Of a stretch of 64,000 nucleotides of DNA, positions 13,412 to 47,551 are shown in pieces. Under the pieces are notes generated by a model. That model was not told the origin of the DNA, made no database searches, and worked only from the letters and a program-made list of their open reading frames with translations. Origin of the DNA: Asterias amurensis (taxonomy: Eukaryota > Echinodermata > Asteroidea > Forcipulatida > Asteriidae); the NCBI RefSeq assembly GCF_032118995.1, contig NC_092657.1, positions 12,231,391-12,295,390 of the forward strand. The letters are read 5' to 3'. The position numbers and the translations under genes were made by a program. Positions within the stretch are counted from its first letter, which is position 1; each line of letters opens with the position of its first letter.

Positions 13412-13415
13412 TTAA

Positions 13416-13781
13416 AGGCAGTGGACACTATTGGTAATTACTCAAAACAATGATTAGCACAAAACCTTACTTGGTGACGAGTATAGGGGAGAGGTTGATG
13501 GTATAAAACACTGTGAGAAACGGCTCTCTGTGAAGTGCCATAGTTTTAGAGAAAGACGTAATTTCCACGAATTTGATTTCGAGACCTCATATTTAGAACC
13601 TGAGGTCTCGAAATCAACCATCTAAACGCACACAACATCGTGTGACAAGGGTGTTTTTCTTCCATTATTATCTCGCAAGTTCGATGACCGATTGAGCTAA
13701 AATTTTCACAGGTTTGTTATTTAATGCTTATGTTGAGATACACCAACTGTGAAGGCTAGTCTTTGACAATTACCAATAGTG
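13416..13781 (+). mobile_element. TTAA MITE, family 1, right end lost
   Basis: The left flank is TTAA (13412-13415), followed by the full left end and the internal hairpin. The similarity stops inside the right terminal repeat ('accaatagtgtt'). Confidence 0.85.
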
Positions 13782-14299
13782 TTCTTTCAGTCGGAAACTT
13801 GTGATTCACTGTCCAAACTCACGTTTGTTCGAGTTTCTTAGGGGTCGAACAGTCCGGCGTTGCATGACATTGGACTTGTGTGAGAATAGTTCAAAGGAAG
13901 CCACAAATATAAATAACATATGAAATAAAAGTCAGTATATTAACTATTGATCATTTTAGTCATTCAGAATCATCAATAAGAATTTGATAAATTGACTATG
14001 CTTATTGGCATAATGTCAAATGTTATGATACTAATCATTCACAACTATTGTCAGCTTGAAATAATTAGAAGTTAAAATTTAGTTAACAGTAGTGTATACA
14101 ACACAAAAACAACTAATATCACCAATTCATAATATCTAATTTTTATATCACAGGTACTATTGACAATCAATGAATTACAGCAAATCAAAACTTGAAAGTT
14201 TTGTATATTTGAAGTCGGGACTTTTTATTTCCACTGTGTATTAATAATAAATAAATATTTCTTTATAAAAACTAATTATTTCAAACAATTATTAATACA
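13782..14299. other. Intergenic, AT-rich, nothing recognised
   Basis: No gene or repeat was found. Confidence 0.4.
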
Positions 14300-15240: not shown

Positions 15241-15760
15241 CAACTAAGCAAGACATTTTCCAAGTTTTCACAAAACCACTACAACAGCAATTATTACTAC
15301 TATTGTTACTGTTAAGTATTGACTTTAGCAATATTTTCACATACATCATTTAGTTACAAAAACAATTAGTGTTAAAGTATACTATTTTGTATTCGTCACA
15401 GGAAACACAACATGAAATTTAAAAAATCGTTGTGTATAATCTAAACGATCACTTTTCACGTTTATAGTTTTGGTAAAGCCACATTGTATAGGAAATCTAA
15501 CGTACTGTTAGGAATGTGTGCCTGCTCAGAACTACGTAAAAAATGGCAATTTACCTGGTAAGTCTTCTGCCACCTTGCGCCTTAAAGTCTCCCATTGTTT
15601 GCAATATTGACATTGTGGAAACATTTCAAGTACACTTAAACTGAAATGCCACTATCTTTTGTCAACACTACGACTTAATTTATTTAAATCTGTGTAACAT
15701 CTTAATCTTCTAAACAAACTTATTTGAGGTTCAAGTTCTTTACAAAAAGTAGGAAATTAC
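15241..15760. other. Intergenic; partly duplicated with 15830-15960
   Basis: 'tttgcaatattgacattgtgg...tacacttaaactgaaat' near 15600 resembles 'ttgtgcaatattgacctttcg...tcacttaaaatgaaac' near 15855, hinting at a small local duplication. Confidence 0.4.
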
Positions 15761-15826
15761 TTGCCATAGTTTCATGCTGCATTTCTTGAGGGAATTCCCA
15801 GCTCCCTTTCAGCTTTTCCACTGTCT
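15761..15826 (-). pseudogene. Remnant of a FReD gene, C-terminal end only
   Basis: The minus strand reads QWKS, an in-frame stop, then KGAGNSLKKCSMKLWQ. This lines up with the last 21 or so residues of the intact genes nearby (QWKSWKG..YSLKKCSMKLRQ). A stop replaces the second Trp and a Trp replaces the final Arg. Similarity to the gene at 16601 seems to extend a few dozen bases into the 3' flank. It is the relic of another cluster member lying just outside the intact minus-strand gene, in the same orientation. Confidence 0.8.
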
Positions 15827-16006
15827 TCCTTGATCAGGGTTTAACTGTGATTTGTGCAATATTGACCTTTCGGGATATTCACTTAAAATGAAACATCGCT
15901 GTCTCGTTTAACAAAGTATTTACCAGTTAATGTCTTTTTATTTGTGTCAAAATAGTAATTATGCCATTGTTAGTTCATGTCAGTCTAATACTGTTAGTTT
16001 GTGTAT

Positions 16007-16408
16007 TGTAACGAACTGAAACTGTGCGCTCCGCCGGTGCGTTGGAGTGGCCCCGCCGGATCTTGGAGGACAACGCTCCCACGGCAGCTGGCTTGAACTT
16101 TTGGTGAACTGTTCTGTGATTGGACGAACTATCGATGATGTATAACATTGTAACACATAATTATAAGAGATTATCCAGGTGCGCGGACCGGATGCGTTGT
16201 TTTGGCGCCTTTTCTATATAACGTATTGTGTATGATTAAGATGTGTAGACAGACCAAATGTTGAGTTCAGTGAGTGAGCATGGAATAAGTTGTCCTTCTC
16301 GAAGTATTAAATAAATCATTGTGTTTCATATTGAACGGAATTTGAGTTCGTTTGTTTTCTGTCTGCGTTTGGCTACAGAGCAAACAAGGACCCTGGCAGT
16401 ACGTTACA
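16007..16408. mobile_element. Solo LTR of an LTR retrotransposon (fossil)
   Basis: A 402-base block begins TGTAACG and ends CGTTACA, with the 4-base direct repeat GTAT immediately outside each end (16003-16006 and 16409-16412). Inside, in plus orientation, are a TATA-like 'ctatataacg' near 16215 and an AATAAA at 16310-16315. I see no internal retroelement region next to it, so it is a solo LTR. The short target repeat suits a Ty3/gypsy-type element, but the family is not proven. Its clean ends and intact target repeat suggest moderate youth. Confidence 0.8.
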
Positions 16409-16600
16409 GTATGTTTTAACTAAGGCTACAAACATCTTACGAGTACATGACAATGACAATTGCAGTGCAAACAAATGATAATGTATAATGACCGAATGAA
16501 AACTAACTTTACTGTGTCATACTTTAAGTTCATTATATATTTGTTTTCTCTTTTAATAGTTATTTACTCGGAGTTTTAATTGTTGGTAAAGATTGGGAAA

Positions 16601-17584
16601 TCACTGTACTTGCCGTAGTTTCATGTTGCATTTCTTGAGGGAGTATCTATCTCCCTTCCAGCTTTTCCATTGTATTCCATAATATCTCGGGAAAAAACCA
16701 TCAGGGTAGTATTTAGCATTGAGATGTGCATCAAAGCAGGTTCTAAACCACCAGGCACCTTCCCTTACCTCTGCACAATTAGCCTTATTAATATCGTTGT
16801 CCTGGTCTTTTGTTGTAAAGGGTCGTCCATTATGATATGCCATTGAATCGCCAGCTGAGCTGTTAGCGTCGTATGAGCCAACCAGGAGAGTGTATTTTTC
16901 ACCTGTCACAGCAAACTCACCATAAGAAGCCCAAGCTGAGTTTGACTGCCAATCTTCGATATCTACTCTGAGCTCCCATTTTCCTGACGCAGTGAGGTCA
17001 CGCAGGATATCATTCCCCAACCAGAACTCATTATGTAGATCACCAAAACCAGTTTGGTATTCAGTCCAGTTACGGTAAAAATCAACAGACCCATTCTGTC
17101 TCCTCTGGAACACGATCCAGCCTCCTCCATCTGTTTCCATATCACAGTAGACATGTAACCTATCAGTCAGACTTGTAGGGTATATTGTGTATATGCCACT
17201 GTCAAGGTAACCAGCTTGATACATCTCCATACAACTGCCATAACTTTCACGGCTGGGTGCTGAAAACGAAGTGTTGTTCACATTGTCATCATAGTACAAA
17301 CTTCCTTGCAACTCAACAAAGTCATCTTGGCTGTCAGCTCTGCTGGCATTATTTAAAACACAAACCTGTGTACATACGTGGTAGTTGAACGACATGCACT
17401 GTGAATCCATGGAGCAGTCTCGACCGCATATCATAGGAGAAGATACAGTCTTCCACTGAAACGTGTGGTTCAGTAAGGCTCTATTTTCAGCCATGTAGAA
17501 CATTTCGATGAACCGTTTTTGGTTTGCAAACTGGCAGGTTTGTACAACCAGAGTCAAAATCAAGGTTGGAATGATGACATCCAT
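16601..17584 (-). CDS. Secreted PAN-like/fibrinogen-related domain protein, copy 1
   Basis: This is a single-exon gene of 327 residues. I use the Met at 17584 rather than the in-frame Met at 17695. It gives a clean 20-residue signal peptide (MDVIIPTLILTLVVQTCQFA) that aligns with the other copies. Residues ~22-100 resemble a PAN/Apple module, with Cys 53, 57, 63, 71 and 75. Residues ~115-327 are a fibrinogen C-terminal domain. It holds Cys pairs 118/147 and 270/283, the DGGGW and FYRNW motifs, a calcium-type 'KDQDND' site (Asp260, Asp262), WWF..C, and the closing QWKSWKG...MKLR. N-glycosylation sequons are present. It is likely an extracellular lectin-like recognition protein, as in ficolins and FREPs; the ligand is unknown. 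It is transcribed away from copies 2-4. Confidence 0.92.
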   Translation of the reverse strand: MDVIIPTLILTLVVQTCQFANQKRFIEMFYMAENRALLNHTFQWKTVSSPMICGRDCSMDSQCMSFNYHVCTQVCVLNNASRADSQDDFVELQGSLYYDDNVNNTSFSAPSRESYGSCMEMYQAGYLDSGIYTIYPTSLTDRLHVYCDMETDGGGWIVFQRRQNGSVDFYRNWTEYQTGFGDLHNEFWLGNDILRDLTASGKWELRVDIEDWQSNSAWASYGEFAVTGEKYTLLVGSYDANSSAGDSMAYHNGRPFTTKDQDNDINKANCAEVREGAWWFRTCFDAHLNAKYYPDGFFPRYYGIQWKSWKGDRYSLKKCNMKLRQVQ

Positions 17585-18640
17585 GTTGATCGTTTCTAGT
17601 TGATGTATCAATTTTGCAGTAGTAAATCCCACTGGTTGTAAGTCTTTCTCAAAATTTAGCCAATCAAATGAACTCCTTCGCGTGGTGGCAGACAATTGTA
17701 AAGGCAGTACACTCCACTCAATGCGTCACCATGTCTGCTCGGCCAAACTGACGTTTAGGCCCGAAGATACGACACAATCAATTGTCCTGGATTTAGCTTT
17801 GATGTGCTCTTGTTGGTCAAGATCACCACTGCAACCAACTGTCTGACCAAAAGTGCTGTAATTTGTAGGCAGTCACGTTTGCAGAGTTAGGGCTATCGAT
17901 TGGAGCTATACTTAGGGGGAGTGAGTATTCGTCATTAAAATTACCAGACCTTCAGGTTGCTCGTGCGGACCACACAGTAAATACTTAACAGTGTAATACT
18001 TTACGCGTAGGCATTGCATGTGAGTTAAGCGCTCGTTCTTGGTAGAGGGCCGTCGGTGAAATTTAAGTCATTATTTTCTAATTACTTGAGCTCGCTATGG
18101 AAAGGGCGCGACGATTGGTGCGGACCTTCAGTCTTCTTAACTTATATTACACCAAAGAATCGATGAAACAATTACTTCACTCCCAAGGCGTCTCTATTGA
18201 TCAAAATCTCATTAAGTCTCACTCAGGGAAAATAGTAACCATGGAAATTAAATTGCTTTGGTCCATGCCTACTATTGCTTCCAACAACCAGTCAGCCTCG
18301 TTTAGGTGTACAGTAAGTTAAGCTACACGGTTGGATCGTCTGAACACAGTTACGACACATTACACACTACCACATGTACGAAGCCGAAGCCGAGGGTGCC
18401 ATTTACCCTCGAGGGTGTACAAAACCCATGGACCCCAGTCACAGCGTGCAACAATTGTTTTGTTATACCTTTGTATAATTGTTATTCCTCTTCTCGAAGT
18501 TCTGTTGTCATATTCAAATATTGTTACGACCGACTATTCATTGTGTTATAAGCAGACGAACAAGAAACAATTCCCTCGAACCCGCGGTTGTTTCGTACAC
18601 AGCGCTGGAAATCGACCAACGCCGGGAACGATCAAGGTGA
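17585..18640. other. Upstream flank of FReD copy 1; nothing else recognised
   Basis: This holds the 5' flank of the minus-strand gene. No TATA box or repeat could be set with confidence. The 113-codon frame at 18331-18672 lacks recognisable features. Confidence 0.4.
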
Positions 18641-18789
18641 TGTACACCGGTGTGCGTTTTTTTTTTCCTTAGTACGAACGCGGGCAATTAACATAAATGG
18701 GCGTAGTTAACTATACATTTGTCCATGCACATGCGTACTTCGACATAATAATAGTTGTGGAAAATTAATACACTTACAAACATGTACAC

Positions 18790-18872
18790 ATACACACACA
18801 CACACACACGTACACGTTACATGTACAATGTACATGTACATTTAGTACCATGTACCATGTAAAACTGCGTAT
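18790..18872. repeat. (CA)n and GTACAT simple repeat
   Basis: A run of CA dinucleotides merges into 'acatgtacaatgtacatgta' palindromic sequence. Confidence 0.9.
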
Positions 18873-19078
18873 TTTGTACAACTATACCTTTTGTCCATAA
18901 AATGCGTCGCGCTTGCTTTCATTGCCAAGTCTTGATTGCCCGATAAAATATGTTTGGATATGGTTGGGAGGGGGAGGGAGGGCAATTATGAAAATAGACT
19001 GACGGTCATTATGAACGGCTGTGGTCCCTAATGTTTTTTGATGAAATTTAATAGTACACTGCATTACAAACATCACTT

Positions 19079-20145
19079 ACACTCTAAGAAAAAAATACCC
19101 AATGTTGCGTAAAATTTTACTCTTTGTGGTGTTCAAAAGGGAACATGGTCGTTTGGAGGGTAAAGCGGTACGCAACAGGGGTTGCGTCGTAATTTACTCA
19201 ATTTCTGTGTAAAACGGCTACCCAACTATGCGTCAAATTTCTAACCCAACTTTGTTGTGTCAAAATGTACCCAACAACCGACTACCCATTTACTCAGTAG
19301 TTGAGCACCATAACCCCAAGTGTTGAGTAAAAAAGAAGTAGTGCATTTTGGCAGCAAAACGGACACTACTAAAAAATTAAAAAAGACATATATACATTGA
19401 ATTGGACTGGACAGTATAATATCCGATTAATATATGGTGATCACAACCCTATAACCACCTTGCATAAAACGACCGGAGTGTTTGTGTACATTCAGGGGGT
19501 GAAAACGAAAACAAAATTTTAGCGAGCAGACTATAAGTAACAATCTCTTTTTAGAAGCGGTGTTGTTGGCTCTCAAAAGAGCCGTTTGGTTTTGCCAAAC
19601 CTGTTATTGACGAAATTAAAGCTGCTATCTACGTATTTCCTGGTGATGCATTTCTCACTTCAACAGACTGTTGTACCTCAAACATAATGCCAAAATTCTC
19701 TCAACTGTGGTTAAATGAACATCAGAACATCAACGACCGCATGCAACATCAGAACTATGTCCACCCCATCCACCTTTGATTGTGACTTGTGCCTGCGACT
19801 TGTATACGTCCGTGTGTAATGTGCACGTTGCATTATGGGTAAAATGGTTTCCACGAGGAGCAGTTTACCCAATTACGCGCAACATTTTACCACAAAAATG
19901 AGCATGTCCTGCTTTTTTTAGTACGTCGCAAGGTAAACTTGACCCTGTTGCGAGGAAAATGTGTTTTTGTACCCATAAGTTGCTTTCACTGGCGAATTTT
20001 TGTATGCGACTTAAAAAGGTACAAATTACCTTCTCGAGAGTACTGGCCAAAAAGCCACATAGCCCAACATTGCGTAAGAAGTTACCCAACTTTCGTACTC
20101 AGCACATTTACTCAGCAAGTTTTTACACTTCTTTTTTAGAGTGTA
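19079..20145. mobile_element. Inverted-repeat element with ACACTCTAAGAAAAAA ends
   Basis: The left end ACACTCTAAGAAAAAA is matched by an inverted TTTTTTAGAGTGT at 20133-20145. Next to both ends are diverged repeats of 'tacccaa(c/t)(g/t)ttgcgtaa' type in inverted arrangement. The middle has no transposase-like frame, so it is non-autonomous. I could not fix a target duplication. Confidence 0.7.
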
Positions 20146-20520
20146 TGCATCTGGAGGACACAAAAATATGAAACAAAAATAATGTTGTTTTTTCCAGAGG
20201 TTTCTTATCTTATGTTGGGATACATCAAGTGAAAATACTGGTCTTCGACAATAATTACCAAATCAAGTGAAAATACCGGTTCGACATTAATTACCAAATG
20301 TGCCCAGTTTAAAAATAAACCATGGATAGTATATCTCCATGATTAGACCATGGAGGAAGAAACATAGGAGGTAGACTGGTTCATCACAACCTGTACACCA
20401 TTGTGTGAAGCGATAGTAGAAGAAAGGCAGGTTGTGTGGTCCCCATTTCGGGCAAAAACACGCCCATTTATGTTAATTGCCCACGTCCGTCCTAGGAAGA
20501 AAAAAAAACGACCCCGAGCC

Positions 20521-20784
20521 ACGTAACATAAATTTTTTGTTGCGCGTAACATGATTGGTTCTCGACCAATCAAACTTCACAGTTTGTTACCGAGATATAA
20601 AAATTACTGTTGATACTGTCCGTTACTTATGCGAAAACAAAATTGTCTGGTCTTATTTTGCACGCGCACACGTTCCCGCAAAGATTATGTTTAAGGCATA
20701 CACTAGAAAAGCGTTTTGTTTAATGCTAGTATCTGTGACAGTCTTTACACAATCTCATACGCAAGCGTTACATGAAAATTTTAA
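20521..20784. other. Intergenic, nothing recognised
   Basis: No gene or repeat boundary could be supported. Confidence 0.4.
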
Positions 20785-21135
20785 ATCAGTGGACACTACT
20801 GGTAATTACTCGAAATAATTGTTAGCATCAAACCTTACTTGATAACGAGTAACGAGGAGCCGTTGATGGTATAAAACATTGTGAGAAACGGCTCCCTCTG
20901 AAATAACGCAGTTTTCGAGGAAAAAAACCTTAATTTTCACTAAATTATTTGAATTTCGAGACCTCAGAATTAGATGTTGATGTCCCGAAATCAAGCATCT
21001 GAAAGCACAAAACTTCGTGTGACAAGTATGTTTTTTGTTCCCCATTCTAATATCGCAACTTAGACGACCGAATGAGTTCCAATTTCCACAGATATGTTAT
21101 AATGTGTATACTATGTTGAGATAAACCAAGTGTTA
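20785..21135 (+). mobile_element. TTAA MITE, family 1, right end lost
   Basis: The left flank is TTAA (20781-20784). The internal hairpin and the 'aacttcgtgtgacaa' block are kept, and the similarity fades before the right terminus. Confidence 0.8.
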
Positions 21136-21164
21136 AAACAACGCGTTTGAAAGCACGAACGATC

Positions 21165-21835
21165 GAAACTAGGATTTAAAGCAATCGCAAAACATCTGAA
21201 AACCGAGTGTCAAAAGGTCCACACTTCGTGCTTCACAACTTATATATAAAATAACAAACCTGTGAACATTAAAACTCAATCGGTCATCGGAGTCGAGTGA
21301 AAACAACGGGAAAACCCAACCTTGTTTCCGCACATTTCGCCGTGTCATGACATGTGTTTAAAGGCAGTGTACACTATTGGTAATTACTCAAAATAATTAT
21401 TAGCATAAAACCTCACTTGGTAACGAGTAATAGGGAGAGGTTGATAGTATAAAACATTGTGAGAAACGGCTCCCTCTGAAGTGCCATAGTTTTAGAGAAA
21501 GACGTTATTTTCCACGAATTTGATTTCGAGACATCAAGTTTAGAATTTGAGGTCTCGAAATCAAGCATCAGAACGCACACAACTTCGTGTGACATGGGTG
21601 TTGTTTTTTTTTTTTTTCATTATTATCTCGCAACTTCGATGACCGATTGAGCTCAAATTTTTACAGGTTTGTTATTTTATGCATATGATGATATACAACA
21701 AGTAAGAATACTGGTCTTTGACAATTACCAATAGTGTCCACTGTCTTTAAAATAAATCCGTTGTTCTCTATTTCGAGAATTGATAATTGTTTTATCTCAA
21801 AAAGTAAAGCTTTGCAAAATAATATATGAATATTG
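21165..21835. mobile_element. TTAA element, family 3, split by a family 1 MITE
   Basis: The left part (to 21357) and right part (from 21751) match consecutive pieces of the family 3 copy at 35605-35948: 'cgcacatttcgccgtgtcat' on one side and 'cgagaattgata...ctcaaaaagtaaag' on the other. The family 1 copy at 21362-21746 lies between them with its own TTAA duplication. Family 3 was therefore here first. Confidence 0.8.
21362..21746 (+). mobile_element. TTAA MITE, family 1, nested in family 3
   Basis: A full-length copy with TTAA on both sides (21358-21361 and 21747-21750). The internal hairpin is intact. Confidence 0.9.
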
Positions 21836-22485
21836 ATGACAGCAATTATATGATGGATAATGATGATGAGACTGAGTCATAAATTGATTCTCAAGGGCGT
21901 GCTTAATCTGCTGCTTGGCAAAAACAACCTGTGCACGTTAATCTATGTAAGACTTTAATTGGATTTTCAGAAAGGTCCTCAATTACCGAAACTTTACCTG
22001 TAAAGTATCAAGTTGTTAAATATTGATCGTGTGGTCCACGCGGGCATCTCAATTTGAAGGTTAAGGATAGTGAATACGCTGGCTAGTCATGGTAATGGAC
22101 TACAAAACAAAGAGGATTTTGTACGAACATTACTGCCAAAGTTATTGTATAGGCACAATTACCTTCTTAATGGTAATTGCATTCCTGACTTAATTATCAT
22201 GGGCGAGAAAAGTATAGTGCACCAAACCCGCCAATGATAATTGTGTCGTTAATCTTAAAGCTTATTACTATCGCTGTTTTGTTACAACCTATTAGCTGTG
22301 ATCTCATTGACGTCAACAGGCAGTGCGTATATGCATAAATTGGTCTGCGACTAAAGATCTAGTCACTGTATCAGAAACTGTTCGTCAAAGACACACTCTC
22401 AGTGCTTGGACACAATTGCCACCAAAGAATTTGTGAAATAAGTTCTTTAAACAATTCAGATTGCTGTCATTAACAAATGTTAATC
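21836..22485 (+). promoter_or_regulatory. 5' flank of FReD copy 2
   Basis: About 650 bases lie upstream of the start codon. A TATA-like 'tatatgcataaat' is at about 22328, some 155 bases before the ATG. This is suggestive only; no transcription start can be read from sequence alone. Confidence 0.35.
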
Positions 22486-23472
22486 ATGAAAACTGTCATT
22501 ACAATCTGCTGCCTTGTACTAGGGGTACAAACCTGTCTGAGTGCAAAGCAGCAACGATTCATCGAAACGTTTTACTTGGCTGAAAACCGAGCCTTACTGA
22601 ATCATGTGATTCACTTGAAAACTGTATCTTCACCCGTGATATGTGGGCGAGACTGCTCTATGAACCCAAACTGTGGCTCATTCAACTATCACATCACAAA
22701 GCGTATTTGTGTGTTGAATAATGCCAGCAGAGCTCACAACCCAGATGACTTTGTCAAGATGCGAGGAAGTGTATACTATGGTGATAATGTAAACAGCTCT
22801 TCATTTGCAACGCCCTGCAATAAAAGTTACATCGATTGTCTGATGATGTATCAAGCTGGTTACCGTGAAAATGGCATATACACAATCGACTCGACAAGTC
22901 TGACTGATGGGTTACAGGTTTACTGCGACATGGAGACCGATGGAGGAGGCTGGATGGTGTTCCAGAGGAGACAAGACGGCTCTGTTGACTTTTACCGTAA
23001 CTGGACTGAATACCAATCCGGGTTTGGTAATCTACATAATGAGTTCTGGCTGGGGAATGATATCCTGCGTGACCTTACTGGGTCAGGTCTATGGGAGCTC
23101 AGAGTAGATATGGAAGATTGGCAGTCTAACACATCTTGGTCTTCTTATGGTGAGTTTGCTGTTACAGGTGATAAGTACACTCTCCATGTTGGTTCATACG
23201 ATAATCGGAGTACAGCTGGTGATTCAATGACAAATCATAATGGACGACCCTTCACTACAAAGGACCTGGACAACGATGCCAATGACAATAATAATTGTGC
23301 GGAGATAAGGGAAGGTGCCTGGTGGTTTAAAAATTGTTTCAGGGCTCATCTCAATGGTCATTACTACCAGGATGGAGATTTTCAAAGATTACAAGGAGTA
23401 CAATGGAAAAGCTGGAAGGGAGACGAATACTCTCTCAAGACATGCAGCATGAAACTACGGCAAGTTGATTGA
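22486..23472 (+). CDS. Secreted PAN-like/fibrinogen-related domain protein, copy 2
   Basis: A single-exon gene of 328 residues. I prefer the Met at 22486 over 22477. It lines up with the starts of copies 1 and 3, and 'atcATG' is the shared start context. The signal peptide is residues 1-20. The PAN-like part (~21-102) has Cys 53, 57, 63 and 75. The FReD (~115-328) has Cys 118/147 and 271/284, the DGGGW and FYRNW motifs, Asp260 and Asp262 of a calcium-type site, and the C-terminal QWKSWKG...SMKLR signature. Six N-X-S/T sequons are visible, near residues 79, 103, 112, 172, 215 and 240. An extra Cys111 in the linker, absent from copies 1 and 3, could pair between chains. AATAAA motifs lie near 23565. 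The expected role is extracellular recognition or adhesion; the ligand is unknown. Confidence 0.93.
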   Translation: MKTVITICCLVLGVQTCLSAKQQRFIETFYLAENRALLNHVIHLKTVSSPVICGRDCSMNPNCGSFNYHITKRICVLNNASRAHNPDDFVKMRGSVYYGDNVNSSSFATPCNKSYIDCLMMYQAGYRENGIYTIDSTSLTDGLQVYCDMETDGGGWMVFQRRQDGSVDFYRNWTEYQSGFGNLHNEFWLGNDILRDLTGSGLWELRVDMEDWQSNTSWSSYGEFAVTGDKYTLHVGSYDNRSTAGDSMTNHNGRPFTTKDLDNDANDNNNCAEIREGAWWFKNCFRAHLNGHYYQDGDFQRLQGVQWKSWKGDEYSLKTCSMKLRQVD

Positions 23473-23534
23473 TTTGTAACACTTTACCAAAAATTATAAC
23501 CGCAAACAAAAACTTTTGTTTCCGTTGGAAGGAC

Positions 23535-23596
23535 AATTTTAAACCCCCCCAAAAAAAAAAAAAATAATAAATAAATAAATAAAATAAAAAATAAAA
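23535..23596. repeat. A-rich tract with AATAAA motifs after FReD copy 2
   Basis: C7 is followed by A14 and (AATA)n. It could supply the polyadenylation signal of copy 2, or be the tail of a retroposed sequence. Confidence 0.5.
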
Positions 23597-23773
23597 ATCG
23601 TGTACCAACCAATTTGTAAAAAGGTTTTACCAATTTTATTCGATACAGTGACTCGATAGTTAAACGCGGTTAAGCAATGCCTAATAGGACGATGATAGAC
23701 GAAGCATTAAATATAAATCTTGCCAACAGAATAACACGTGCTGTGTGACGTACATGCATCACCCAAGATTTTT

Positions 23774-23957
23774 GAATAAGGAAATCAATATGTGGTGAAG
23801 AGGTTTTCAACTAGTGGTTTAATCCCAACGAGGCGGCCTGGTTCTTGATTTAACTTTACCGAGACGTAGTCGAGGTAAATTATCAAGAACCAGGCCTCGG
23901 TGGGTTTAAACTACTAATTGAAAACCGATTCAACACACTTTGATTCCCATTCTTAAA
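23774..23957. mobile_element. Foldback element, ~184 bases
   Basis: Long inverted arms: 'ggcctggttcttgat' pairs with 'atcaagaaccaggcc', and the pairing extends outward through 'ttttcaactagtggttta' and 'taaactactaattgaaaa'. The loop is about 25 bases. Confidence 0.85.
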
Positions 23958-24079
23958 TACCTTTTCGGTGAAAAAACATCACCACTTTGGGTAAAAAGTA
24001 AAATAAATGCAAAAATAATTATTGTTCAATGATTCTTTCAACAAAACACCCCTCCAGCTATGAAATGGTAAGGCCCTCC

Positions 24080-24340
24080 GCCACCCTCGGGTAAACAACT
24101 CCTTGTAAGGGAATGCTGTGCGCGTCGCGCGTATCGCGTGTTGTGGCACAACTGTCCCGGCCGTTGCTCTCGACCAATAGGAATGTAGAAACTGTCTTAT
24201 AATCACAGGTGCAAGCTCGCGTGTCATGCCCATGTTACAACACTTTTTACTGGTCATACAAAACATTGGTTTTTACACACCCACGTGACGCGCTCTCCAC
24301 CAATAGGAGTAGCGAAACTGTCAGGTATTTATGAATGGTT
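24080..24340. repeat. Interspersed repeat with CCACGTGACGCGCTCTCCAC block
   Basis: 'caccaataggagtagcgaaa' and its neighbour also occur near 8150 and 36260. A diverged internal copy ('ctcgaccaataggaatgtag') lies at about 24165. No protein is encoded. Confidence 0.6.
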
Positions 24341-24540
24341 GTAAAAGACAGAAATTGCCTCAATGTGTTGACCGTATCTGTAAGAGGTAGCTATTCTCAA
24401 GAGGTATGCCTTCTTAAAAAATGTATATCTTAAGGGGAAACCTGTGTGTTCCTAAAGAAAAATACAATTGGAGGTGCAGTCGTGTTCCCCAAGAAAAGTT
24501 TTGAGTTAACCTGTCCCCAACTACGTAAATGCATTGCTGA

Positions 24541-24853
24541 TTGTTTTAAAGCGAACAACTAATTACCATATTTGTTCGACCAAAGCTTATATTATTGACG
24601 TAAACGTCATATAGAAGTTTAATTAACAAATTGTCGACCATGACCGGGAACAAAGCATGCAATCAAAACCCACAGCAGGTGATTAGGCTGTTTGTATTCA
24701 AGTGGCAACAAAGTTTGGCGGTTCGTTTGCTCTCAATGCCATTGTTACGGTGACGTCAAAGGGTAAAGCTTCTTTAATGCTTAAATATAGAAGGCGACCA
24801 AAAATTAGTTCATTTTGATAAATTCATTCACGTTAAGGACTAACTCTCACATA
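24541..24853 (+). promoter_or_regulatory. Duplicated upstream block, distal copy
   Basis: This block and 25095-25437 are two copies of the same roughly 310-340 bases. Shared words in order are 'tgtcgaccatgaccgggaac', 'aatcaaaacccacagcaggt', 'gattagg.tgttt', 'tcaagtggcaaca', 'gtttggcgg' and 'ttcacgttaaggac'. The proximal copy ends about 100 bases before the start of FReD copy 3. A MITE fragment separates the two. It contains a TGACGTCA half-palindrome near 24750. Confidence 0.7.
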
Positions 24854-24865
24854 ATGCATTAATTA

Positions 24866-25036
24866 ACAAACCTGTGAAAAATTGAGCTCAATTGGTCTTC
24901 AAACTTGCGATATAATAATGAAAGAAAAAATTCCTTGTCGCACGAAGTTATATGCTTTCAGACGCTTCTTTCTCGAAAAGAACGTTACTTCAGAGGGAGC
25001 CGTTTCTTACAATACTTTATACTACCAACAGCTGTA
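24866..25036 (-). mobile_element. TTAA MITE, family 1, fragment between two promoter-like blocks
   Basis: The family words 'aacaaacctgtgaaaa', 'gagctcaattggtc', 'gcgatataataatgaaag' and 'cagagggagccgtttct' run in order. Both ends are missing. Confidence 0.8.
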
Positions 25037-25094
25037 TTGTTTAAAATATTTTTAATAAGCAAACATGCAGTTTACTTATTTAGAAAGTCGTGAA

Positions 25095-25535
25095 TTCATT
25101 GACGTAATTGCATCGCTGACTATAGTTTGAAGAACAAAAATATTAATTGCCATAATTTGTTTGACCGAAGCACGTATTTTTGACGTAAACGACAAGTTAA
25201 ATTATCATTGTCGACCATGACCGGGAACAATACATCCAATCAAAACCCACAGCAGGTGATTAGGTTGTTTGTCATCAAGTGGCAACACAGTTTGGCGGTT
25301 TTTTAATATCTCAGTGCAATGGTAACGGTGATGTCAATGGGTATACATGTGTGTAACTTCTTATTGCTTAAAAATTGTCAAGACCCATAATCAGTTCATT
25401 TGAACAATTCATCCACGTTAAGGACCTACTCTTAGTGTAAGGACAACATTTCTACAGAGTGATCTGAGAGAAAATATCAACTCTACTTTGTTCAACGTGA
25501 CTTACTTTAGATAAGTGAATCCTCAAGCGTTTATC
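25095..25535 (+). promoter_or_regulatory. Upstream block next to FReD copy 3 (proximal copy)
   Basis: The second copy of the 24541-24853 block, then about 100 bases to the ATG. Because it sits directly before the gene, the repeated block probably includes the promoter of copy 3; this is an inference. Confidence 0.6.
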
Positions 25536-26525
25536 ATGGAGGTCGTCATCGTAACCGTGTTAATGGTTTTGATGGTACAAACCTGCCATAGTGCAAACCA
25601 ACAACGGTTCATGAAAACGTTATACTTGGCTGAAAATCGAGCTGTATTGAATAAAGTCATTCAGTGGAAGACGGTGTCATCTCCAGTGATATGTGGGCGA
25701 GACTGCTCCATGAACCCAAACTGTGGCTCATTCAACTATTACATCAGGAAACGTATTTGTGTGTTGAATAATGCCAGCAGAGCTCACAGCGCAGACGACT
25801 TCGTTGAGTTGCCAGGAAGTTTGTACTATGATGACAATGTGAACAACCCTTCGTTTTCAGCACCTATCATTGAAAGTTACAGCAGTTGTCTAAAGATGTA
25901 TCAAGCTGGTTACCGTGACAATGGCATATACACAATATACCATACAAGTCTAACTCATGGTTTACAAGTTTACTGTGATATGGAGACAGATGGAGGAGGC
26001 TGGACCGTGTTCCAGAGGCGACAAGATGGCTCTGTTGACTTTTACCGCAACTGGGCTGATTACCAATCTGGGTTCGGTGATCTGCAAAAAGAGTTCTGGT
26101 TGGGGAATGCTATCATGCGTGACCTTACTGGATCGGGTCATTGGCAGCTCAGGGAAGATATGGAAGATTGGCAGTCCAGGATCGCTTGGGCTTCTTATGG
26201 TGAGTTTAATGTTACAGGTGACAAGTACACTCTCCAGGTTGGTTCTTACGACAATCGGAGTACAGCTGGTGATTCATTGACTGATCATAATGGACGATCC
26301 TTCACAACAAAGGACCAGGACAACGATGAACATTCAAACAATTGTGCCAAAAAAGGGAATGGTGCTTGGTGGTTTACAGGCTGCCTCACGTCTCACCTCA
26401 ACGGTCAGTACTACCAGGATGGAGATTTGCTAAAATTCCAAGGAATACAATGGAAAAGCTGGAAAGGGACCGAATACTCCCTCAAGAAATGCAGCATGAA
26501 ACTTCGGCAAGTAGGTCTACTGTAA
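25536..26525 (+). CDS. Secreted PAN-like/fibrinogen-related domain protein, copy 3
   Basis: A single-exon gene of 329 residues from the Met at 25536 (an in-frame Met lies at 25515). 'atcATGG' is a good start context and gives the signal peptide MEVVIVTVLMVLMVQTCHSA. PAN-like part: Cys 53, 57, 63, 75. FReD: Cys 118/147 and 270/283, DGGGW, FYRNW, Asp260 and Asp262, WWFTGC, and QWKSWKG near the end. Cys positions match copy 1 exactly apart from that gene's extra Cys71. Compared with copies 1 and 2 it has 'NWADYQ' for 'NWTEYQ', so it loses that sequon. AATAAA lies at 26717-26722. It starts 3.05 kb after copy 2, as in a tandem duplication. Confidence 0.93.
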   Translation: MEVVIVTVLMVLMVQTCHSANQQRFMKTLYLAENRAVLNKVIQWKTVSSPVICGRDCSMNPNCGSFNYYIRKRICVLNNASRAHSADDFVELPGSLYYDDNVNNPSFSAPIIESYSSCLKMYQAGYRDNGIYTIYHTSLTHGLQVYCDMETDGGGWTVFQRRQDGSVDFYRNWADYQSGFGDLQKEFWLGNAIMRDLTGSGHWQLREDMEDWQSRIAWASYGEFNVTGDKYTLQVGSYDNRSTAGDSLTDHNGRSFTTKDQDNDEHSNNCAKKGNGAWWFTGCLTSHLNGQYYQDGDLLKFQGIQWKSWKGTEYSLKKCSMKLRQVGLL

Positions 26526-26729
26526 ATTCCATGTCTTTTTGAATAATTGGAACTGCGAAAAAGATAAGAAACAAATCGGAAAAAAATAACTGGTAGTTTG
26601 TCAAACGATACAGGCACGTATCGTCTAAAAGTCAAAATTGAAGATGGTACACAAATTTTGAGAAATTAATTGGTGGTCGGTCGAACAATTCGCATATGGG
26701 TATAGTCAAGTAATATAATAAATTATTAA

Positions 26730-26975
26730 TATCGGAGTCTTGTATGGCGCACCTAGCTCCCAAACAAGGTACGCAAGGCGCTGAGTATATACAAACTTTC
26801 AGAAATATATTTTATTGCAGTGATGAATTCTGAGACCCAAATATTTGGCACCTTCTATGGGTCTACAAAGTGCAACGGCCACAGTCAGGAACACCGGGGC
26901 GAACCCCTTCTCTTTTCGATAAGTGTACTGGGTTCTTTTGCATGCGTTACATAACACATAGTCTAGTCAGAATGG
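26730..26975 (-). mobile_element. SINE-related fragment (same family as 33848-34500)
   Basis: 'aacaccggggcgaac' followed by 'ccttctctttt' is the reverse complement of 'aaaagagaagg' and 'gttcgccccggtgtt' at about 34428-34452. Only the 3' body is seen here, not the tRNA-like head. Confidence 0.6.
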
Positions 26976-27063
26976 TTCAAAGAAAGTATATATATATTTT
27001 TTTTTTAGCAGGTTTTTTTTTAACCTGAAAACTAAAGTGAAATCAATCACCATGCAATCTTAA

Positions 27064-27384
27064 CGCACCAGACACTATTGGTAATTACTCACAATAATTA
27101 TTAGCATAAACCTCACTTGGTAACGAGTAAAGGAGAGCTGTTGGTAGTAGAAAACATTATGAGAAACGGCTCCCTCTGTAGTGAAGTAGTTTCGATGCAG
27201 AGGTAAATTTCCAAGAATTTGATTATTGAGCAACATAACTAGAGTTGGTGGTCTCGAAATCAAGTATTTTGAAATCACACAAGTTCCTGTGACAATGGTG
27301 TTTTGTTCTTTCATTATTATCTCGCAGCTTCGGCGACCATCTGAGTTCAATTGCGTGACAGGTATGTTATGTTATGCATATGGG
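27064..27384 (+). mobile_element. TTAA MITE, family 1, right end lost
   Basis: The left end 'gcaccagacactattggtaa' is changed but recognisable. The body runs in order to 'gttatgcatatg'. Confidence 0.8.
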
Positions 27385-27777
27385 TGGTAAGGATTTTGTC
27401 TCTTTTTACAAAATCCGCCCCAATCACCTTGCAGTAAACACGTTGCGCTTTGTATCATTGGGAAAAAGGCGCCGTATAAATACGGTTATTCTTATTATTG
27501 AATAATTCTGTCCACGTGAATAAAGTCTGCCTATTTATCCGTGAATAATGAGCACCCACTTGGTAGCCACAGAGCTAAAGTAGGTTAACACAAAACAACC
27601 ATGACTGTACAATTATGCAATATGGGTCTTTGAAAGGGTTTCTGTTCAAGAAATCAATTCATGCGGAGTACATAAATTTGTGCTTGATGACTCCCAAACA
27701 GCACTGCTTGCTTTTAGCGAAAACGCAATCTTGTCCCTAAAGAAAATGTATTTCATTATCGATTTATCAACCGGCTC
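27385..27777. other. Intergenic, nothing recognised
   Basis: A 'gcgccgtataaatacggttatt' piece near 27470 looks like a repeat tail, but no family could be set. Confidence 0.4.
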
Positions 27778-27781
27778 TTAA

Positions 27782-28146
27782 AGACCCTGGACACTATTGG
27801 TGATGTGGTCAAAGACTAGTATCTCAAATGCATGATACAACAAACTTGTTAAAATTTGAGCTCAATTGGTTCGTCGAAGTTGTGAGATAATAATGAAAGA
27901 AAAAAACACCCTTGTCACATGAATGTGTGTGCTTACAGATGCCTTACTTCGAGACCTCAAATTCTAAATATGATGTCTCGAAATCAAAATCGTGGAAAAC
28001 TAATTATTTCTCGAAAACTACGTCACTTCAAGAGGGAGCCTTTTATCACAATGTTTTATACTATCAACCTCTCCCCATTACTCGTTACCAAATAAGGTTG
28101 TATGCTACTAATTATTTTGGGTAATTACCAATAGTGTCCACTGCTT
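27782..28146 (-). mobile_element. TTAA MITE, family 1
   Basis: TTAA lies on both sides (27778-27781 and 28147-28150), with both terminal repeats present. It lies just upstream of the broken FReD copy 4. Confidence 0.9.
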
Positions 28147-28474
28147 TTAAGTACAAGTTAACTGTTTTCTACAGACAGCCGTTGTGTTGCCAGGTAACAT
28201 TCCATTAGAGGCGCGGTAGAGCCTTGGATTTATTTTTTAAAGCAATATTCCCGACTCGCTTGCGTCAAAGAGCGGATCGATGGGAACAAAGCCATGCTGT
28301 TATTGTAGATTCGGCTTAACAGACGTTTAATAGTGAATGAGTTGAACGTTCATGTTTTTTTTTTTTTTTTTTAAGAAAAATTTTTGTGACTGACAAGTTA
28401 TCCAGCAGAGTCTCTGTTAGAGTCGTCAGTTTTATGAAAATACCAAAATTGTGTCTACTTTTACAACAATCATC

Positions 28475-29371
28475 ATGGGATCTCTTGTCTTAGCTTTGAC
28501 TCTGCTACTCGTGGTACTTTATTGTCAGAGTGAAAATCCACAGAGATTTATCTCAACCAAGTATCAAGCAACACATCGAGCTTTAGAGAATCATGTGTTT
28601 CGACGGAAGACTGTAACATCGCATGTGATCTGTGGGCGAGACTGTACTATGGATCAAAAGTGCTATCGGTCAACTACCAAATAGGTTGTAAGGTCTGCGA
28701 ATTAAACAATAACACCAGAGCAAGCAACAAAGAGATACGACAGTTGTGAGACATTGTATCAAGCTGGTTACCAAGATAATGGCATCTGTATAATCTTTCT
28801 AACAAACCTGACTGGACAGGTTTACTGCGACATGGAGACAGATGGAGGAGGCTGGATCGTGTTCCAGAGGCGACACGATGGCTCTGTTGACTTTTACCGT
28901 AACTGGACTGAATACCAATCTGGGTTTGGTGATCTGCATAATGAGTTCTGGTTGGGGAATAACATCTTGCGTGACCTTACTGGGTCAGGTCAATGGGAGC
29001 TCAGAGTAGAAATGGAAGATTGGGAGTCCATAACATCTTGGGCTTCTTATGGTGAGTTTGCTGTTACAGGCGACAACTACACTCTTCATGTTGGTTCATA
29101 TGATGCTCAGAGTACAGCAGGTGATTTAATGGCATAACATAATGGATTGCCCTTCTCAACTAAGGATCAGGACAACGATGCATATTCGAGAAATTGTGCG
29201 GAGTTAAGGAAAGGTGCCTGGTGGTTTAAACATTGCTACAAGGCTCATCTCAGTGGTCAATACTACCATGATGGAGATATTCTGAAAAGAGAAGGAATAC
29301 AGTGGAAAACCTGGAAGGCAAATGACTACTCCCTCAAGAAATGCAGCATGAAACTACGGCAAGTACTGTAA
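28475..29371 (+). pseudogene. Broken copy 4 of the PAN-like/FReD gene
   Basis: The start ATG (28475, context 'atcATGG') and a signal peptide (MGSLVLALTLLLVVLYCQS) are intact, then the PAN-like module to ICGRDC. After CYR, near 28670, the frame slips: the homologous residues VNYQIGCKVCELNN continue in another frame. About 25 codons of the linker are then missing, and the original frame resumes at YDSCETLYQAGY. The fibrinogen domain is nearly complete, but a TAA at 29135-29137 replaces the Tyr of the 'MAYHNG' motif. The closing 'KKCSMKLRQV' is kept. It starts 2.94 kb after copy 3. A truncated product cannot be excluded, but three separate lesions argue for a pseudogene. Confidence 0.9.
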
Positions 29372-30430
29372 ATGTCCACGTCTCTTGTTTGAGAAGTTAA
29401 GTTAAAAAAAGAAAATCAAGAGTTAAGCAAAGCAATCTAAAAAGCATGACAGTGAAGTTAGTGTGATATTTGATGAACATGGGACACTCACATTAGTTTG
29501 TACAGCGAATGTCTACTTTCAATGTATGGCATGTGTCTAAAACTACTAGGAACTCGTTACATATGTGTCAAATGCTTAAGTGTTCGTTTACGAGAAGACC
29601 ATGCAAAATCTTCAAAAATCGACAAGGTGGGGGGTCAGCGATTTAAACTCAAATCTTGGCTATTTGATCCCCACCTGGGACCATAACACCTGGTGGAGCA
29701 GCTCGCTCAAAAATCTTACAGTGGCCGAGTACGGGCACCAACTAGTTTCAGCGCAAAATTGACACTTCCGGGGAGTTTATTTGTAGTGTTTCTGGCGTAC
29801 TGTTAGAGCCCCGTTAATTCCATTAAACTGTATCAATTTTTGTCGACATATACATCAAAAGAAAGAGCTCATCGTCCTCTTCACGATGAAATAATACAAA
29901 AATGTGTGAAAATTTTCACTTTAGATATCTAGGCATTAGGAAAACACTTGACAGTTCTACTAAGGAAATAAGCCATCTACGCAGTTAACCATAACTTAAT
30001 TAGTGCAGGGCTGAGTGTCAACAAACTTGGTGGAAGTATAGTTTAGATATCCAACTACAATAATAAACAATAAAAACATTGCCAGCTCTTCTTGATTTTG
30101 ATTGCCAAGGGTCAACAAAGATGGAAAAGTTCATAAGTATCTGTATCAAACCTACATACAGTCCTGAGTAAAGTATTGCTTGCCTTTAATTTACGTCTGG
30201 AATAGGATGTTATATAACATTAAACAAATACATCAACAAAGATGATACATAAGTTTTTGCAAATTGTGTGTATTAAGGTGGATTAAGGTCGGAGAGTTTT
30301 GTTTGCAGCAACGACCGTGATAATGGAAGTGGAACGTCCAGAACCGCCCACCCAGTTAGCGCGAAGTACCGCAAGATTGCGCCCCACATTGCATTGCAAC
30401 CCCCCCCCCCCCAATCGCGAGCGATGTCAA
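29372..30430. other. Intergenic; C14 run at 30401-30414
   Basis: No defensible gene. GC content rises and CpG becomes more frequent over the last ~100 bases, next to the gene start at 30432. Confidence 0.4.
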
Positions 30431-30460
30431 CATGTCAGCCATGAATATGGCGGCTGTATC
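30370..30460 (+). promoter_or_regulatory. CpG-bearing start region with a YY1-like site
   Basis: 'aatATGGCGGC' at about 30444-30453 resembles the YY1 site (AARATGGCGGC). It overlaps the start codons, a common place for it in housekeeping promoters. Confidence 0.4.
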
Positions 30461-32242
30461 GCTGCAGTGTGATTTTTATAATCTTGAGCATTGCAAAGAC
30501 ATCGAGTGTGGTGTATATCCCTCTTATCCGCGAGAGAGCAATACCGTGCATCTTCGTCAATGCACAAAAAACATACGGAGCCATTTGCAGAAGTGGAAAG
30601 TTGCTGCACATGATGTGAATGTCGAGTGGAAGTTGATCCTCCTGCGATGTGGGTTATTCGACGTTGATGCTTACAACAGTGATAAGACGATATGCCCGGC
30701 ACATCGGTACAAGTTAGGGTTGAGTTGGACATCAACAAGGAAATGCTGTCATCCACTCCATGAAGGGAAAGGCAAACCATGTCGTGGTGCGAATAAAACA
30801 ACTAGTCGTGAGGTGGGATAATCTTCCGCACGTCGCCACCAATTTATCCGCCGTTAATTAACTCCAAAACCACATAATTTGTTTCTTACCTGAGAAGAAG
30901 GGTTACCACATATATACATCAACAGTTTGTAAACAATGGTCAAAATTGGGCCGTTTTTGACTTCCAGTGACATCGAACTCCGCCATGTTTATGCTGTTTG
31001 TGTGTGTGAGTGTTGTTGAAACGGGTTCTCCGTTACTTTATTGTTCGGATTCCGCAAACAGGACAAAGGCTACAACGGATTTGACGATACAAAATACAAT
31101 AATTACAGATGATTTATTATATACCTGTGCTCAGCTCACAGGAGCCATCTTGTCAACACCGTGTATTCAATCCCACAATGTATTTGGCATTCATGGTGCG
31201 CCTAATGGGCAAGTACCTCTCAATAGTAAAGTATGAATACAAAGTGTCCGCTACAGAATTGTAAACACGCTTCTTCATAAGCACATACTTGTTTCATCCT
31301 TGCTTTATGCAGCATACAGTATCTCACTGGATTTATTCAATTTCTCAAATTTCCAGCAAACGTGCGAGTCTTCATCAACTGATGACAATGTTACACATGA
31401 TCTAGGTGCATTTGACTCTTCTTGGGCTCCAACCCCCCGACCAAAGAATGTGGAGTTGCAATCCCTGAACACTTTCCTTATCCAGAGTGGAAGGTCTCCT
31501 GTTGATGGACAGCTTCGTCGACCATTAGAAAAAGCATCTGATAGTACCATCCGTTATTATAGAAGAAAGGCAAAGGAAGCTTTTGGTTTAGTTCTCAATT
31601 GTTTGGCACCTGGTCAAGAAGATGGGCTTATGAAGATCACAGTTGGTGAAAAAGCTGCTGACTTATCACAAAGTGATCAAGATGTTGACAGCAGTACCAG
31701 CTCTCTAGTTGTGTGCTATCAAGCTGCAGACAACTGGTGTACCAAACGACAGATTTTATCAATATTGGCCCACAACATGACAAACATTACATTGTTACTT
31801 TGCACGTCAGTGGGCTGAAAAGATTGGCGAGATGCAAGCTGGCCCTTCTTGTTCCAGTACAGGTGTTGAGACTGTCAGTTCTGGAGCAGCTTTGGCCTCT
31901 ATGTCCCAGGCAATCCTTCCTGGCTGGGCTCGCAAGATTTCCAAGGCAAGGAAGAGGTTTTCACAGCAAGTGAAGGATTTTTTGCTTGCTCAGTTCATGA
32001 TTGGCGCCAATACAGGAAAAAAGGAAAACCCAGAAACTGTGTCCCGGCGATTGAAAAGTCACTTTCACAGAGATGACTGGTTGACTACCCAACAGATAGC
32101 CAGCTATTTTTCACGTCTTGCTCTCCTACAAAAATCTGGGACACTGCCATCAAAGAGCTGGACTGATGTGCAAAATAATGCTGTAGAATTGGTAGAAAGA
32201 CAGGTTCTCGTGGATGCTGTACAGAACCAGTGTGAGCTTTGA
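30432..32242 (+). CDS. Uncharacterised Cys/His-rich multi-copy family protein; gene or recent pseudogene
   Basis: Three pieces fit one gene. Exon 1 (30432-30812) encodes 127 residues with many Cys/His, including CPAH near 88-91 and KCCHPLH near 104-110, probably metal-binding. Exon 2 starts at 31357 after 'atttccag'. Both junctions are phase 0, so the exons join cleanly (...TSRE/QTCESS...). It carries 'STIRYYRRKAKEAFGLVL' and 'QAADNWCTKRQILSI'. The last part, to 32242 in another frame, has 'LPGWARKISKARKRFSQQVK', 'GANTGKK' and 'WLTTQQIASYFSRLA'. I recall similar modules in large uncharacterised families of cnidarians and echinoderms, possibly transposon-derived. The frame change near 31800 is either a 52-base intron (31806-31857, GT...AG, which keeps the frame) or a frameshift. 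AATAAA lies at 32608. Confidence 0.5.
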
Positions 32243-33847: not shown

Positions 33848-34500
33848 GGAAGTGTCGTGGCCGTGTGTTCAGAGCACCGAATTCAAACTCTGGTGTTTCT
33901 GATCAGCAGAGTGTGGGTTCGAATCCCAAGCCGTGAAACTTGTGTCCTTAAAAGGCAGTGGACACTATTGGTAAAAAATAATTTTTAGCGTAACACCTCA
34001 CTTGATAACGAGTAATGGGAAGAGGTTGATACATTGTGAGAAACAGCTCCCTCTAGAGTGACGTAGTTTTCGAGAAAGAGGTAATTTTCCACGAATTTGA
34101 TTTCGAGACCTCAGATTTAGAATTTGATGTCACGAAATCAAGCATCTGAATGCACACTTGAATGCACACAACTGCGTGAGAACAGGGTGTTTTTTTTTTC
34201 ACTACTATCTCGCAACTTCGACGACCAAATGAGCTCAAATTTTCACAGGTTTGTCATTTTATGTTGAGATACACCAAGTGAGGAGACCGGTCTTTGACAA
34301 TTACAAATAGTGTCCAGTGTATTTAAGCAAGACGCTTAACCAATGCTTCGTCCTTCGGATTGCATGTAAAGCCGTTGGTCCCATGTGTTGGGTCACGTAT
34401 GTGAAATTACACTGTGCACTTATCAAAAAGAGAAGGAGTTCGCCCCGGTGTTCCTGGCTGGATGCGGCGTAGCATTTTGTAAACCCTACTAAATTAATTG
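33848..34500 (+). mobile_element. tRNA-derived SINE, split by a TTAA MITE
   Basis: The head (33855-33935) is tRNA-like: an A-box-like 'tggccgtgtgttcagagc' and a perfect B box 'ggttcgaatcc'. A long variable arm and 'ttcaaac' at the anticodon position suggest tRNA-Leu(CAA) ancestry. The body resumes at 34327 with 'gcaagacgcttaacca', a phrase typical of many invertebrate SINE bodies, and runs to about 34500. The MITE at 33952-34322 interrupts it at a TTAA. Confidence 0.75.
33952..34322 (+). mobile_element. TTAA MITE, family 1, nested in a SINE
   Basis: TTAA is duplicated on both sides (33948-33951 and 34323-34326), and the SINE reads straight through once the MITE and one TTAA are left out. This is the best demonstration of the family's target site in the window. 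Confidence 0.93.
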
Positions 34501-43611: not shown

Positions 43612-43699
43612 GTAGGTTTTGATTCTTTGCATGGTGGAAATACGATATGGAAAAGTTTGCAGTAACACCATGTAATGACTATCTCTAATGAGTTGGGGT

Positions 43700-43715
43700 G
43701 GTTCTGAAAAGAACC
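43700..43715 (-). terminator. Histone-type mRNA 3' stem-loop without a histone gene
   Basis: On the minus strand: CCAAC, then GGTTCTTTTCAGAACC (6-bp stem, TTTC loop), then ACCCC. This fits the metazoan histone pre-mRNA stem-loop, including its CCAA-type upstream and ACC-type downstream flanks. No histone coding sequence is seen for several hundred bases upstream on that strand. Confidence 0.6.
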
Positions 43716-43794
43716 GTTGGTTTAATGGTACGCCTAATGGTTTAGGAAGCTACGGTGGCTGATCTCCGCCAACAAATAAACACTTTTTCAGTAT

Positions 43795-45115: not shown

Positions 45116-45184
45116 AAAAGAAAGGAATAATTAAGAATGAAAATAATCATGTGAAACTCATCACTGTAAAAGAGTGAGAAGTGA

Positions 45185-47549: not shown

Positions 47550-47551
47550 GG

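Follow-up and report, generated by a model that had tools for sequence, protein, structure and literature searches.

Which proteins does a cluster of fibrinogen-domain genes in the sea star Asterias amurensis encode, how did the cluster arise, and what could its products recognise? The locus lies in a stretch of 64,000 nucleotides (NCBI RefSeq assembly GCF_032118995.1, contig NC_092657.1, positions 12,231,391 to 12,295,390 of the forward strand), which we refer to as the window and whose numbering is used throughout. An earlier note, made from the letters of the DNA, had described here an intronless cluster with whole, broken and relic members. As judged from its sequence, the locus is a small array of duplicated genes with intronless coding parts, encoding putatively secreted proteins that combine a PAN domain with a fibrinogen-type recognition domain, and it contains intact as well as broken copies. 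The explanation that we favour, and consider probable, is that the locus is an array evolving by birth and death, whose single-exon genes encode secreted fibrinogen-related proteins (FREPs, in the broad sense); these genes would have been duplicated at the DNA level, would have lost the classical S1 acetyl-binding pocket and would carry a remodelled surface.

The array contains three intact genes, one broken copy and one relic

Three members of the array have intact open reading frames (ORFs). Gene A (16601-17584, minus strand) encodes 327 amino acids, i.e. an N-terminal hydrophobic stretch followed by PAN_1 at residues 41-99, a linker, and Fibrinogen_C at residues 117-324. Gene B (22477-23472, plus strand) encodes 331 amino acids from the first ATG and 328 from position 22486, with PAN_1 at 37-101 and Fibrinogen_C at 119-328; the second Met, at 22486, is very likely the start because it coincides in the alignment with the start codons of A and C and is preceded by the base A at -3. 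Gene C (25536-26525, plus strand) encodes 329 amino acids (PAN_1 at 39-88, Fibrinogen_C at 116-324). The proteins encoded by A, B and C share 70-75% identity in pairwise comparisons.

The two remaining members are a broken copy, D (28475-29371, plus strand), and a relic, E (15758-15832, minus strand). The array thus occupies both strands, with B, C and D on the plus strand and A and E on the minus strand. These data bear out both the count given in the earlier note, i.e. three intact genes, one pseudogene and one 3' relic, with chance excluded for A, B and C, and its description of a family in all three states. The spacing of about 3.05 and 2.94 kb that it gave for the plus-strand copies was likewise recovered, as the aligned starts of B, C and D are 3050 bases (22486 to 25536) and 2939 bases (25536 to 28475) apart. 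When A, B and C were used as tblastn queries against the whole window, no further family members were detected, and all other matches had E values of at least 0.19.

Copy D keeps the N-terminal hydrophobic stretch, and the frame from its ATG stops at a TAG at 28682-28684. Relative to B, one base is missing near 28663 and about 80 bases are missing around 28733-28744, before the fibrinogen part; an in-frame TAA at 29135-29137 lies inside the fibrinogen part. Both fibrinogen pieces of D match Pfam, and its front piece matches no Pfam family. Over 212 codons, the differences at codon positions 1, 2 and 3 number 32, 35 and 60 between D and A, 29, 30 and 44 between D and B, and 29, 33 and 64 between D and C. 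Because third-position differences still outnumber those at either other position, D was probably disabled late. Relic E is about 75 bp long, covers the final 25 codons of the fibrinogen domain and contains an in-frame TGA; it was found by tblastn with E values of 1e-4 to 1e-3, matching at 71-76% over 24-25 codons.

The intact genes encode PAN and fibrinogen domains in a single frame

In all three intact genes, Fibrinogen_C (PF00147) was matched with E values of 2e-68 to 2e-71 in the same uninterrupted frame as PAN_1 (PF00024), for which the Pfam cut-off is 21.4 bits. PAN_1 scored 30.6, 33.6 and 32.2 bits in A, B and C, respectively, and 33.9-37.2 bits when the PAN stretches were searched alone; the PAN-like front module predicted in the earlier note was therefore recovered by this profile in three of three intact members, both alone and in context. 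With E values of up to 1 allowed, A, B and C matched only PAN_1 and PAN_4 in Pfam besides Fibrinogen_C, and no match to immunoglobulin superfamily (IgSF), epidermal growth factor (EGF)-like or fibronectin type III domains was obtained. The single architecture ascribed to all members holds for the three intact genes, and relic E does not extend far enough to display it. Similarly, the claim that introns are lacking stands for the coding frames of A, B and C and reaches no further, an intron in the 5' untranslated region (UTR) being possible.

The N termini of A, B and C have a hydropathy of 2.75-3.29 over 11 residues, and no later transmembrane-like stretch was present in these proteins, in which hydropathy reached at most 1.01 over 19 residues. 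On the basis of hydropathy, the three products are predicted to be secreted.

The mature proteins encoded by A, B and C have a common set of four Cys residues in the PAN domain, four in the fibrinogen domain and one at the C-terminal end. The claim that all Cys positions agree is valid for this set and fails for two additional residues, C71 in the PAN domain of A and C114 in the linker of B; counted after the first 20 residues, there are nine Cys in C and ten each in A and B. The C-terminal Cys (A319, B323 and C319) is also kept in D and E, and it has no counterpart in the printed alignments of the FIBCD1, ficolin-2 and tenascin-R chains. This conserved residue may form an interchain disulphide.

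The S1 acetyl-binding pocket is replaced in all readable copies

According to the available part of a study of FIBCD1 (PMC3908420), Asp393 and Asp395 are calcium ligands in this protein, and the S1 pocket for the acetyl methyl group consists of Tyr405, His415, Tyr431, Ala432 and Trp443. The same text states that only Ala432, and no other amino acid, completes the pocket appropriately, that Trp443 is Tyr in tachylectin 5A (TL5A) and in L- and M-ficolin, and that L-ficolin binds acetyl groups at a separate site, S3 (PMC3908420).

The fibrinogen domain of C could be aligned with FIBCD1 (4m7f) without gaps from the calcium site to the C terminus. As read from the alignments, the positions of Asp393 and Asp395 are Asp in A, B, C and D, and the Cys401-Cys414 pair is retained. 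Positions 405/415/431/432/443 are R/F/R/Y/D in A, R/F/R/L/D in B, G/L/K/F/T in C and R/Y/K/R/N in D, i.e. none of the five S1 pocket residues is kept in any of the four copies. The classical S1 acetyl-binding mode is predicted to be lost in all four readable copies, in a comparison of the S1 site, and an S1-type acetyl lectin is unlikely because all five S1 residues are replaced. The fibrinogen domain had been called lectin-like in the earlier note; in the sense in which ficolins are lectins, this description was not supported by the comparison. Among A, B and C, moreover, none of the five S1 positions is invariant, and at each one C has a residue found in neither A nor B; noticed post hoc, this variability counts as weak evidence.

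Among solved chains, tenascin-R was the best match for A and B (1.7e-61 and 1.9e-60), ahead of ficolin-2 or FIBCD1 by 1.3-1.4 bits, and FIBCD1 was the best match for C. These results bear on the possibility that the products are matrix or repair factors and not immune proteins, with tenascin- or angiopoietin-like functions in adhesion or signalling, as proposed for the expanded FREPs of one regenerating sea cucumber. The best chain for C speaks against this possibility, as does the turnover documented by the broken copy and the relic, because gene turnover in arrays is more typical of recognition families. On the other side, the narrow lead of tenascin-R for A and B and the replaced S1 pocket fit a matrix or repair factor, and FREPs of Apostichopus japonicus increase during visceral regeneration, as described in the available part of the report (PMC5638244). 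We regard this explanation as a tentative alternative that deserves to be kept in view.

A second explanation is a ficolin- or tachylectin-like lectin that binds N-acetyl groups on microbes via S1 and in which the PAN domain replaces the collagen stalk. The strong similarity to the ficolin-2, FIBCD1 and TL5A chains and the retained calcium-site aspartates and Cys401-Cys414 pair are compatible with such a lectin, and acetyl groups may be bound at an S3-like site, as stated for L-ficolin in the available part of PMC3908420. However, A and B match tenascin-R best, albeit by the small margin given above, and with the S1 residues replaced we consider this explanation unlikely.

Upstream homology points to duplication at the DNA level

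Strong homology among the copies ends near the start and stop codons. Outside these limits, we aligned the upstream DNA by a sensitive procedure that was kept clear of dispersed repeats and was calibrated with 300 shuffles and 176 real-DNA controls. The DNA upstream of A (17585-18241) contains collinear remnant homology to that of B (21781-22455; 382 of 613 aligned positions identical) and to that of C (25068-25481; 224 of 350), and the regions upstream of B and C are homologous to each other (230 of 381). The collinear matches begin no more than about 60 bases from the ATG and extend to -369 to -696; identity over aligned positions is 60-64%, which is near the 64-66% expected from the proportion of synonymous differences (pS). 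For A-B, the score was 284, against a shuffle maximum of 214 and real-DNA maxima of 218 (A) and 213 (B); for B-C, it was 231, against 211 and real-DNA maxima of 213 (B) and 194 (C); and for A-C, it was 205, against a shuffle maximum of 196 and a real-DNA maximum of 194 (C).

In a coarser test of 1 kb of upstream DNA, which included dispersed repeats, the A-B and A-C scores were reached by 0 of 200 controls, the B-D score by 50 and the A-D score by 120. In the downstream flanks, shuffles reached the score in 0 of 200 cases for A-D, 6 of 200 for A-B, 10 of 200 for B-C and at least 52 of 200 for the other three pairs, and controls reached it in 4 of 200 cases for A-D and in at least 20 of 200 for the other five pairs. 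In total, common upstream DNA of A, B and C is supported but faint. Because A, B and C have collinear upstream homology over about 0.4-0.7 kb, these genes were most likely built by duplication at the DNA level; their ancestor may have been a retrogene.

The regular spacing of about 3 kb was also considered as proof of a duplicated 3-kb unit. This was rejected on two grounds: several copies are preceded by similar dispersed repeats, and outside these repeats the DNA upstream of D has no homology to that of the other copies.

If the genes were serial retrogenes, each copy would have arisen separately, by reverse transcription and insertion of the same spliced message. The intronless coding frame and the near restriction of strong homology to the ORF are what this model predicts, retroelement remains are present in the window, and D lacks shared upstream DNA; moreover, the first copy may indeed have been a retrogene. 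By contrast, the upstream DNA common to A, B and C is longer than a short 5' UTR, and repeated retroposition is in our view quite improbable as the source of the array.

The intact genes are under purifying selection

For pairs of A, B and C, synonymous divergence (dS) is 0.45-0.48 and nonsynonymous divergence (dN) is 0.14-0.19, with whole-gene dN/dS ratios of 0.32-0.42. By these values, A, B and C are old duplicates under purifying selection. That the genes are decaying remnants without a present role is highly improbable even though two of the five members are broken, given three full frames, these ratios and differences that are mostly at third as opposed to first or second positions.

Diversification of the ligand loop, for which the earlier note had suggested a dN/dS comparison, was not borne out. 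Variable columns make up 20 of 44 in the ligand loop versus 54 of 174 in the rest of the fibrinogen domain (Fisher p = 0.077). The highest proportion of nonsynonymous differences (pN) in any 25-codon stretch of the fibrinogen domain, 0.24-0.25, lies in columns 271-305, where pS is 0.49-0.55; the signal peptide exceeds this pN, with 0.32 in columns 1-25. A hypervariable ligand loop was rejected, as the excess of variable columns is not significant and pN is below pS there. In 1 of 31 sliding windows, columns 111-135, pN exceeded pS (0.20 versus 0.15), and dN/dS values above 1, each over few sites, were obtained for the linker in A-B (1.12) and A-C (1.16) and for the signal peptide in A-C (1.44). 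Thus, diversifying selection is not demonstrated for the array, and it may have acted on the linker and the signal peptide.

Repeats and mobile-element remains in the window

A dispersed repeat family, 60-91% identical to reference copies, is present between and around the fibrinogen genes in both orientations, with pieces at 13412-13795, 20780-21106, 21358-21750, 27071-27382, 27828-28158, 33985-34326, 34514-34663 and 35636-35775. Several copies contain a self-complementary 'ATTTCGAGACCTC...GAGGTCTCGAAAT'-like core. Upstream of gene C, there is a direct repeat (24630-24723 and 25207-25300), the two parts of which are 93% alike and 577 bp apart. Three ORFs of 153, 193 and 153 amino acids, the last two overlapping, lie at 30360-32242 on the plus strand; they have no Pfam match and are possibly a degraded mobile-element gene.

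Retroelement remains at 44320-46682 (minus strand) include a reverse-transcriptase/RNase H-like domain (RVT_3, E value 3e-7). By eye, the upstream ORF (46293-46682) contains a CCHC zinc knuckle and the downstream ORFs resemble a tyrosine recombinase (DIRS-like), with no Pfam match above the cut-off for the latter. Palindromic GGCGTTATAACGCC-like units form short tandem arrays flanking the retroelement at 43795-43910 and 47546-47833. A histone 3' UTR stem-loop was matched in Rfam at 43675-43720 (minus strand) with a score of 35.7, just above the gathering score of 34; as regards histone genes, nine short histone motifs were absent from all frames of the window. Finally, tandem arrays at 50273-51446 and 53036-54475 consist of 326- and 329-bp units in 3.6 and 4.4 copies with 88% and 87% matches, respectively.

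Discussion

In the birth-and-death array that we propose, each unit would encode, in this order, a signal peptide, a single PAN domain, a short linker and a C-terminal fibrinogen domain. The duplicated unit would have comprised a coding part that was already intronless together with upstream DNA of about 0.4-0.7 kb or more, and copies would have been placed in both orientations; after duplication, one member would have been disabled and one reduced to a 75-bp relic. The proteins would be secreted, their fibrinogen domain would fold with stabilisation by calcium, and the ligand would be held by the remodelled S1-side surface. Such a surface would more likely bind proteins or non-acetyl glycans than acetyl groups at S1. 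Instead of a collagen or coiled-coil stalk, the proteins would have the PAN domain as a second module for binding or multimerisation, and the extra C-terminal Cys may link chains covalently. By analogy, the proteins would function in innate recognition or in the extracellular matrix or wound repair, between which we make no choice. A bolder version, which we offer as a doubtful speculation, is that an intron-free PAN-fibrinogen family abandoned the S1 pocket and kept the calcium scaffold, using the S1 surface, which differs between paralogues, as a non-acetyl recognition face that is free to vary and forming covalent dimers via the C-terminal Cys.

Several observations weigh against the proposed array. 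The PAN assignment is one made by sequence profiles only: AlphaFold models had a mean predicted local distance difference test (pLDDT) score of 33 for the full-length proteins and 39 for the PAN stretches, with only three-sequence alignments as input, and no Protein Data Bank chain was retrieved at E values of up to 10 with a profile built from these three stretches. Regarding duplication, the A-C upstream score is below the best real-DNA control for A, 218. Moreover, the DNA upstream of D gave no signal to that of A, B or C, the scores being reached by 137, 218 and 130 of 300 shuffles, and in the coarser 1-kb test the B-C and C-D scores were reached by 23 and 7 of 200 controls. Finally, the pocket comparison is limited to S1, and S3 is the site at which L-ficolin binds acetyl, as the available part of PMC3908420 has it.

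Compared with FIBCD1, ficolins and TL5A, the array is alike in the aspartates of the calcium site and in the two Cys residues on either side of S1, and it differs in having a PAN domain in front, replacement of all five S1 residues and an extra C-terminal Cys, with no visible collagen, coiled-coil or membrane segment. In ficolins, a collagen-like stalk precedes the fibrinogen domain, whereas the array has a PAN domain and a short linker instead. The fibrinogen globe of tenascin-R is the best-scoring solved chain for two of the genes, with narrow margins; however, the EGF-like and fibronectin type III repeats of tenascins are absent from the array in Pfam searches. In mollusc FREPs in the strict sense, the fibrinogen domain is preceded by one or two IgSF domains, and in the array by PAN.

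The combination of PAN and fibrinogen domains, taken in the earlier note as potentially lineage-specific, is not novel. Oyster, limpet and snail examples are cited in the available part of PMC7588048, i.e. PAN/Apple domains in four Crassostrea gigas genes, in some fibrinogen-related domain proteins (FReDs) of Lottia gigantea and in Biomphalaria glabrata FREP1. These mollusc proteins resemble those of the array in that a PAN/Apple module is joined to a fibrinogen domain; unlike the array, B. glabrata FREP1 includes an IgSF domain as well (PMC7588048). Among echinoderms, and as far as the accessible portions of the reports go, FREPs are the most expanded family in A. japonicus, are induced in regeneration and include a tandem cluster of 21 genes (PMC5638244), which resembles the array in its clustered fibrinogen-related genes; a further sea cucumber was found to have many fibrinogen-domain proteins in its coelomic fluid (PMC12119288), and ficolin-2-like contigs were reported in sea star wasting disease (PMC4503460). 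No echinoderm PAN-fibrinogen family was described among the matches listed, judged by titles and the beginnings of abstracts, with subscription journals mostly outside coverage. The features that characterise this array are its single-exon coding unit and its replaced pocket.

In a scan of bacterial and archaeal genomes, 7 relatives were found among 127 pattern matches, each within query residues 112-191, i.e. in the fibrinogen domain only, and 39 pattern matches in viral contigs included 0 relatives. The seven bacterial contigs (L001-L007) contain a short stretch like the N-terminal fibrinogen part, 36-53% identical in the best segment.

Families of fibrinogen-domain proteins are one main route by which invertebrates obtain large recognition repertoires. 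The A. amurensis array is a compact and testable case in which intact, broken and relic copies are adjacent and single-exon units are easy to express, and it clearly predicts that these proteins lack the classical S1 acetyl pocket. Should this be true, 'ficolin-like' labels assigned automatically to such genes would mislead with respect to both ligand and complement activation.

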